Assembly: GCA_035283685.1 (NCBI GenBank)
Contig: DATETJ010000004.1
Span: 124,001-188,000, forward strand
DNA length: 64,000 nucleotides
Direction of reading: 5' to 3'
DNA from: Candidatus Bathyarchaeia archaeon
GTDB taxonomy: Archaea > Thermoproteota > Bathyarchaeia > Bathyarchaeales > Bathyarchaeaceae
The notes below the pieces were generated by a model that worked only from the letters and a program-made list of their open reading frames with translations, searched no databases and was not told the origin of the DNA. A program made the position numbers and the translations under genes. Position 1 is the stretch's first letter. Each line of letters starts with the position of its first letter. Below are positions 16,195-17,603 of the stretch, piece by piece.

Positions 16195-16821
16195 CTATTT
16201 AGAACTCATTTCCCTGCGCAAGATACTGCCTTTTGGCGCGGTTTCCTCGAAGACTATGGCTTGGAACTTATAGATTTTCGTGCCGTTTAGCAGCCATGAA
16301 TCTGGAGGTAGCCCCGCCTTCACGCAACACTCGCAGAGAAAAGTCTCCTCATCCCAGCCCAGTTCAACGGGCACTTGCGGTAGTAACAATCCTTTGCAGT
16401 AGGTGCGCTCCACGATCAAGCCGTCGCGTCCCACCTTGATTTCGCTGCAGTAGTCTCGCGGCTTTTCAACTTTCACAGGTTCTGGCGGCGTGAGCACGCT
16501 GACTTCAAAGACGACATGATCGAGTTCATCTGGGCTCATCGACGAAAAGCGCGGGTCTTGCGACGCCGAGCTTATGGCAGACTCAATCACTGCCTTGCCC
16601 AGCGGCGCGGTAGGATACGGAGTCCCTATGCATCCTCGCAATTGATGGCGCTTACCTTGAACAGTGTTTATGGTGACGAAGACACCGCATTGCTTCTTAA
16701 GTTTTGGCGGCGCATCAACAGGCACTTGAATAATTTGCCTTTTCGTCAGATAGGTTTTGGCGGCTCTTCGCGCCAGCGTTACTAGGTATTCGCCCTCTTT
16801 TTGCGTCAGTTCAAACGACAT
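16195..16821 (-). CDS. AMMECR1 domain protein
   Basis: A 208-residue protein of the AMMECR1 family. It has the invariant LRGCIGTPYP motif, IESAISSASQDPRFSSMSPDEL, FEVSVLTPPEPV, GRDGLIVERTYCKGLLLPQVPVELGW and the Cys-rich FLCECCVKAGLPPDSW. The family is found in archaea, bacteria and eukaryotes, and its catalytic role is not established; it often lies beside genes for radical SAM proteins and MEMO-like enzymes. Here it precedes nadC by 13 bp on the same strand. Confidence 0.92.
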   Translation of the reverse strand: MSFELTQKEGEYLVTLARRAAKTYLTKRQIIQVPVDAPPKLKKQCGVFVTINTVQGKRHQLRGCIGTPYPTAPLGKAVIESAISSASQDPRFSSMSPDELDHVVFEVSVLTPPEPVKVEKPRDYCSEIKVGRDGLIVERTYCKGLLLPQVPVELGWDEETFLCECCVKAGLPPDSWLLNGTKIYKFQAIVFEETAPKGSILRREMSSK

Positions 16822-16911: not shown

Positions 16912-17532
16912 TTAGAATTTTATGGACTCTTCAGCCATGCCCTCGTTGGTGATAATGAGAAAGTCAATGCCGTCGCCGCTCATCACATCTCGACTTATCG
17001 CAGACTTCATTGCCCGTGTAACTAGGTCTTTGCCATCTTCAATTGTCATATCTTCCTTGTAGCCTTCTTCAAGTAACCCATAGGCGATTTCGGCGCCCGA
17101 GCCCACAGCAGCATACTTGTCAGGTATGAGCGAGCCCAACACATCGAGAACATAAATCGATGCTCCTTCGTCATCTATGCCGCCGACAATGGTTTGAGTT
17201 ATCAGCGGAAACATTCGTCTAGCAAACAAGAGACTGGACATCAGCTTCGAAGCAGACTTCACCGTTATCGGGCGGTTAGCATCTAACCTGAACAGGTTGG
17301 CGTAGGCTTCAACCTCGCGGATCAAAATCTGCATATCAGAGACTAGGCCTGCACAGGCTGCGCCAATGCCATCCGCGACTTTGAACACTTTCTTGCCAAC
17401 GCGGCTCATCACCATGTAACCGTAAGAGATTCGTTTCTCAGAAGCCAAGATGACGCCGGTGGAGCAGACCACGCCGATGGTTGTGGCGCCTGGGATAAAC
17501 ATGTACGGTTGCTGCTGCCCTTGTTCAGTCAA
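16912..17532 (-). CDS. Proteasome beta subunit paralogue with Ala in place of catalytic Thr1
   Basis: A 206-residue 20S proteasome beta-type protein. After a 15-residue leader the expected Gly-Thr junction reads GATTIGVVCSTG: the residue at mature position 1 is Ala16. Aligning the fixed landmarks confirms it: Glu17 (ASEK), Lys33 (GKKVFKV), GSGAEIAYG around Ser129 and RDVMSGDGID around Asp166/Ser169. The nucleophilic Thr therefore appears lost while the rest of the site is kept, so this is probably a structural or regulatory beta. Many archaea encode a second, active beta; none is in this window. Confidence 0.87.
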   Translation of the reverse strand: MTEQGQQQPYMFIPGATTIGVVCSTGVILASEKRISYGYMVMSRVGKKVFKVADGIGAACAGLVSDMQILIREVEAYANLFRLDANRPITVKSASKLMSSLLFARRMFPLITQTIVGGIDDEGASIYVLDVLGSLIPDKYAAVGSGAEIAYGLLEEGYKEDMTIEDGKDLVTRAMKSAISRDVMSGDGIDFLIITNEGMAEESIKF

Positions 17533-17603
17533 GAACTACTCCTCCTAGTTGACTGCAGTATTTCCGCATGGCAACCTAATAAGCTTTTGAACATACAAGA
17601 GGG

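Follow-up and report, generated by a model that had tools for sequence, protein, structure and literature searches.

A proteasome beta-subunit paralogue with alanine at the catalytic threonine position in a Bathyarchaeia genome and across its phylum

Archaeal 20S proteasomes are described in a 2026 review as typically containing a single type of beta subunit in their beta rings, and hence 14 active sites (PMC13022661). In Sulfolobus acidocaldarius, however, the beta subunit Saci0662 assembles with the alpha subunit into a complete 28-mer without activity; the second beta subunit, Saci0909, does not assemble when combined alone with alpha, and all three together form an active 28-mer in which Saci0909 is present at the lower ratio (Anjum 2015, PMC4569737). 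Saci0662 was described as seemingly catalytically inert and essential for the interaction with the alpha rings (PMC4569737). A literature search for a named inactive archaeal beta subunit returned mostly studies of human PSMB, with the 2015 Sulfolobus paper the only directly useful result. Here, we analyze a psmB paralogue encoded at 16912..17532 on the minus strand of a 64,000-nucleotide stretch (the window) of contig DATETJ010000004.1 from a Candidatus Bathyarchaeia archaeon, and we compare it with the Sulfolobus system and with beta subunits collected across the phylum.

The gene starts at a TTG codon and encodes 206 residues. Its product is an archaeal 20S proteasome beta subunit: it scores 226.1 bits against the archaeal beta model NCBIfam TIGR03634 (cut-off 224) and 178 bits against Pfam PF00227 (threshold 22.4), and only 90 bits against the alpha-subunit model. 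An AlphaFold model built from a 41-row alignment (predicted local distance difference test, pLDDT, 86; predicted template modeling score, pTM, 0.84) shows the N-terminal nucleophile (Ntn) hydrolase sandwich fold of beta subunits. In a Foldseek comparison with the PDB, the model matched proteasome subunit chains, the best of which were beta chains (TM scores 0.79–0.82), and 6z46 (Saci0613/Saci0662) was both among the very best structural matches and the best PDB match by sequence. The intact fold proposed by the first-pass annotation, which had been made from the nucleotide sequence, is thus borne out by a confident prediction.

The propeptide junction of the product reads YMFIPG-ATTIGVV, with Ala at position 1 (codon GCC, 17485..17487, minus strand, as for all coordinates given here), the site of the catalytic Thr1, and Thr at position 2 (17482..17484). 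The gap-free match to the catalytic paralogue of this genome (KG-TTTIGITCRDGVILASDTR) places Ala at position 1, with Glu17 (17437..17439) and Lys33 (17389..17391) at exact ungapped spacing from it, and the two proteins share their alignment columns for the GSG and RDxxSGDG motifs. Within GSG, the Ser at 17098..17100 corresponds to the canonical Ser129, a column occupied by Ser or Thr across the clade, and a D-V-M-S segment at 16978..16989 runs from the canonical Asp166 to the canonical Ser169, both invariant. The product therefore lacks the Thr1 nucleophile of a threonine peptidase beta subunit and retains the remaining catalytic-site residues (Asp/Glu17, Lys33, Ser129, Asp166 and Ser169), and, as read from the alignment, Gly-Ala-Thr-Thr-Ile-Gly is a clean T1A replacement without a register shift. 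The first-pass annotation had likewise assigned Ala to position 1 and described the spacing to the other site residues as exact, and both statements hold; of the consensus against which it had read the junction, Gly-Thr-Thr-x-Val-Gly, the substitution stands but the motif itself does not, as the catalytic beta subunit of this genome carries G-TTT-I-G. The N-terminus is MTEQGQQQPYMFIPG-ATTIGVVCSTGVILASEKR, in which the 15-residue extension MTEQGQQQPYMFIPG (17488..17532) is predicted to be disordered from the model pLDDT: residues 1–12 have pLDDT values below 50, and the first strand begins at residue 17, directly after Ala1 (residue 16). Because Thr1 is missing, this extension cannot be removed by autolysis.

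Exactly three PF00227 genes, one alpha and two betas, are present in the assembly, which is 2.28 Mb long and 98% complete. The second beta (L001) is encoded elsewhere in the genome and has an intact Thr1 (KG-TTTIG); the first-pass annotation had called for a search for such a gene and had named a genome without one, together with an active proteasome, as grounds for giving up its reading. The alpha gene adjoins a putatively SBDS-like open reading frame. A weak fourth PF00227 open reading frame of ∼275–281 residues (98–109 bits) occurs in some relatives (G008:C10:79478, G016:C9:5522, G019:C1:1138811 and G036:C4:37727) and is absent from this genome.

To place the substitution in its phylum-wide context, position 1 was read as the residue 16 positions before residue 17 in a census of 170 non-catalytic sequences (171 minus one alpha row, L003, at 181.8 bits), part of which come from closely related genomes and so are not independent. 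Position 1 is Ala in 164, Gly in four and Ser in two of them, and never Thr, which answers the comparison among relatives that the first-pass annotation had proposed. As Ala is present in 164 of the 170, a sequencing artefact or chance can be ruled out as its origin, and because all Ala1 codons are GCN, Thr is one transition away. Thr2 and Lys33 are found in every one of the 170, and at residue 17 there are 162 with Glu, six with Asp and two with Val; the catalytic betas (n = 64) all have Thr1, Thr2 and Asp17. Thr2 is thus invariant in the non-catalytic and catalytic clades alike. The product shares 48–80% identity with its orthologues (67–80% with its closest named relatives, from Bathyarchaeota), the open frame is kept throughout the phylum, and the structural residues are invariant. 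The 33 high-quality genomes tabulated outside the class, from 27 families, each encode a single beta that lacks Thr1 alongside one or more that have it; one of them has no alpha match, presumably because of an assembly gap.

Several individual sequences deserve comment. The four Gly1 variants (L210, L218, L254 and L262) display what appears to be a canonical P-G-T-T-V-G, but they are one residue short and position 1 is Gly; automatic annotation could mislabel them as catalytic. Two sequences from one genus, L280 (G229) and L281 (G073), combine Ser1 with Val17 and come from the family in which the Sulfolobus-like sequences are found, and Ser could act as a weak Ntn nucleophile in these. A contrast with alpha subunits at Lys33 was set aside, as two alignments disagree near this column in alpha.

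A maximum-likelihood tree of 117 betas was calculated with residue 1 excluded, using a quick search without bootstrap and support from the Shimodaira–Hasegawa-like approximate likelihood ratio test (SH-aLRT), and rooted on three euryarchaeal betas only. The 73 non-catalytic rows form one clade (SH-aLRT 99) apart from the Thr1 betas, and the inert betas of the Sulfolobales (L245 and L231) fall inside it. One change between Thr and non-Thr suffices on this tree, with no reversal. Within the clade, which spans 40 substitutions per site in total, position 1 needs five changes (four Gly lineages and one Ser, the latter represented by two genomes from a single genus), whereas the median column needs 19. 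On these sequences, Thr1 was lost once, with one duplication, at the base of the phylum or close to it; the basal placement is likely rather than proven, owing to the quick search without bootstrap and the three-sequence root. Three families additionally carry a tandem pair of an alpha-like gene and a third beta, L269 (G043), L275 (G055) and L283 (G242). These third betas have Thr directly after the start (M-TTI or V-TTI) with no propeptide and form a clade of their own (SH-aLRT 100), and the pair possibly encodes a second proteasome-like particle.

Together, these results make it highly probable that the product has a structural role in a beta ring of mixed composition, with the active sites provided by the Thr1 paralogue. 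The structural beta would pair with alpha and fill part of each seven-membered beta ring, and the single Thr1 beta would occupy the remaining positions and supply the peptidase sites. The N-terminal extension would either stay on or be trimmed in trans by Thr1 neighbors, as the general behavior of T1A subunits suggests, and the lower site number would be a consequence rather than a selected purpose. The first-pass annotation had favored a non-catalytic ring member over a pseudogene, and its view is strengthened by the single origin, the open frame and identity maintained across the phylum, the invariant structural residues, the confident fold and the inert Sulfolobus orthologue that builds a 28-mer. 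Four points weigh against this explanation. Mixed rings, and with them the presence of two betas in one ring in this organism, are inferred from one distant relative, ∼44% identical over the structural match; the experiments on the Sulfolobus particle were done in vitro with truncated subunits produced in E. coli (PMC4569737); all-structural beta rings and separate all-catalytic rings may also be compatible with the sequences; and the full retention of Lys33 and the Asp/Ser motif is not demanded by a purely structural role alone.

The invariance of Thr2 in 170 of 170 sequences, along with the retained Lys33 and Asp/Ser motif, is what would be expected if cleavage one residue later freed Thr2 as the nucleophile and the subunit were active after all, an outcome that the first-pass annotation had stated would overturn its reading. 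However, the Thr1 paralogues also keep Thr2 without exception (64 of 64), so its conservation is not specific, and Gly5, residue 17 and Lys33 stand at canonical spacing from Ala1. The authors of the Sulfolobus study considered the two betas to have equivalent threonines and chose the site of propeptide truncation on that basis (PMC4569737). The deposited Saci0662 chain (6z46) starts M-T-A-I-G, and the near-identical Sulfolobus sequences (L245) read ELP-ATAIG, which places Ala at position 1 in those. E. coli normally removes a Met that precedes Thr, so the construct in effect tests cleavage one residue later. The alignment thus suggests that the Thr taken as T1 in 2015 is Thr2, which would explain the dead alpha/Saci0662 particle; the inactivity of the construct largely refutes a Thr2 nucleophile, and together with the register makes it highly improbable here. 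The loss of the catalytic residue could also mark a decaying duplicate, a pseudogene in the making, and to this we attach practically no credence: it is refuted by the single ancient loss, the invariant residues, the high identity and the open frame kept phylum-wide.

A function away from the 20S core, for instance alongside the neighboring AMMECR1 or NAD-synthesis proteins, draws on the gene order, as AMMECR1 is the next same-strand gene at 88 of the 109 bathyarchaeial loci; but beyond the class this linkage is absent, save for one loose case, and the beta subunit is kept, and the Sulfolobus orthologue sits in the 20S particle, making such a role very unlikely. More weight, though still a minority share, is given to a mainly regulatory function, in which cells would use the ratio to the Thr1 beta to adjust how many active sites each particle carries as growth or stress conditions change. 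Archaea do shift subunit mixtures with conditions (review, PMC13022661), and control through subunit ratio is plausible and does not conflict with the structural-subunit explanation, but a purely regulatory role misfits Sulfolobus, where the cylinder does not form without the inert beta. The first-pass annotation had suggested that the subunit may set ring composition or dampen activity; this is supported in part only, insofar as the homologue is needed for the cylinder.

If selection keeps Ala, Gly or Ser at position 1 while the rest of the catalytic site is retained, the dead site may have a positive function, such as binding peptide or the N-terminal extension of a neighbor, or determining how many sites are active. 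We regard it as a tentative and rather unlikely proposal that the beta subunit split once, at the phylum base, into a catalytic form and a dedicated dead form with such a function, an arrangement since maintained with virtually no exceptions; if true, this archaeal split would resemble the eukaryotic division of labor yet stand apart from it. More simply, a returning Thr may make unwanted sites, with the other site residues holding the fold.

Turning to the locus itself, a Shine–Dalgarno-like AGGAGGA was read from the sequence at 17540..17546, 7 nt 5′ of the TTG start. Directly 3′ of the beta gene lies an AMMECR1-domain gene (16195..16821), which is not a proteasome part and is a conserved neighbor within Bathyarchaeia. 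The bathyarchaeial loci with this linkage are among L034–L062 and L103–L182, and outside the class it occurs loosely in G288. A divergent NMNAT-like gene is found upstream of the beta gene in 69 of the 109 bathyarchaeial loci.

A dead beta subunit of this kind was already known from Sulfolobus, and it is a normal component of the proteasomes of the phylum rather than an oddity of this genome; what the sequences add is the Bathyarchaeia member and a phylum-wide single origin without reversal. Because all of the genomes examined in detail encode a Thr1-less beta, the count of 14 sites probably fails in this phylum. Mixed rings here would be a second, archaeal case of catalytic and non-catalytic subunits sharing a ring, the purpose of which is testable in the genetically tractable Sulfolobus.

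Among known systems, Saci0662 is the closest counterpart, with Ala1, Thr2, Lys33 and the Asp/Ser motif (read in near-identical relatives), Sulfolobales relatives within the non-catalytic clade, and a partner Thr1 beta at a separate genomic locus. It differs in its extension, which is ∼5–6 residues in Sulfolobales (MEELP) and 15 here, with Pro-Gly before Ala, and in overall sequence, at the ∼44% identity given above; the inactive 28-mer was shown for Saci0662 only. The canonical archaeal catalytic betas (Thermoplasma, Archaeoglobus and Methanocaldococcus PsmB, and L001) share the family, the fold, Thr2, Lys33, GSG and RDxxSG, but have Thr1 and form a separate clade; residue 17 is Asp in all sampled catalytic betas of this phylum and mostly Glu in the non-catalytic ones, whereas the catalytic betas of Thermoplasma and Archaeoglobus have Glu17. 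Pyrococcus furiosus also has two beta paralogues, PsmB1 and PsmB2, which form mixed beta rings in vitro, but both carry an active-site Thr, inactivated by T7A and T11A (PMC3605417). The eukaryotic beta3, beta4, beta6 and beta7 are beta-fold subunits that lack a working Thr1 and sit in a mixed ring, and beta6 and beta7 also have N-terminal extensions. Against the profile of the non-catalytic clade, beta5 scores 132 bits, beta6/PSMB1 128 bits, and beta3 and beta2 ∼124–125 bits; all lie within about 10 bits of one another, too close to tell catalytic from non-catalytic eukaryotic subunits, and no special kinship to the latter is seen in these scores.
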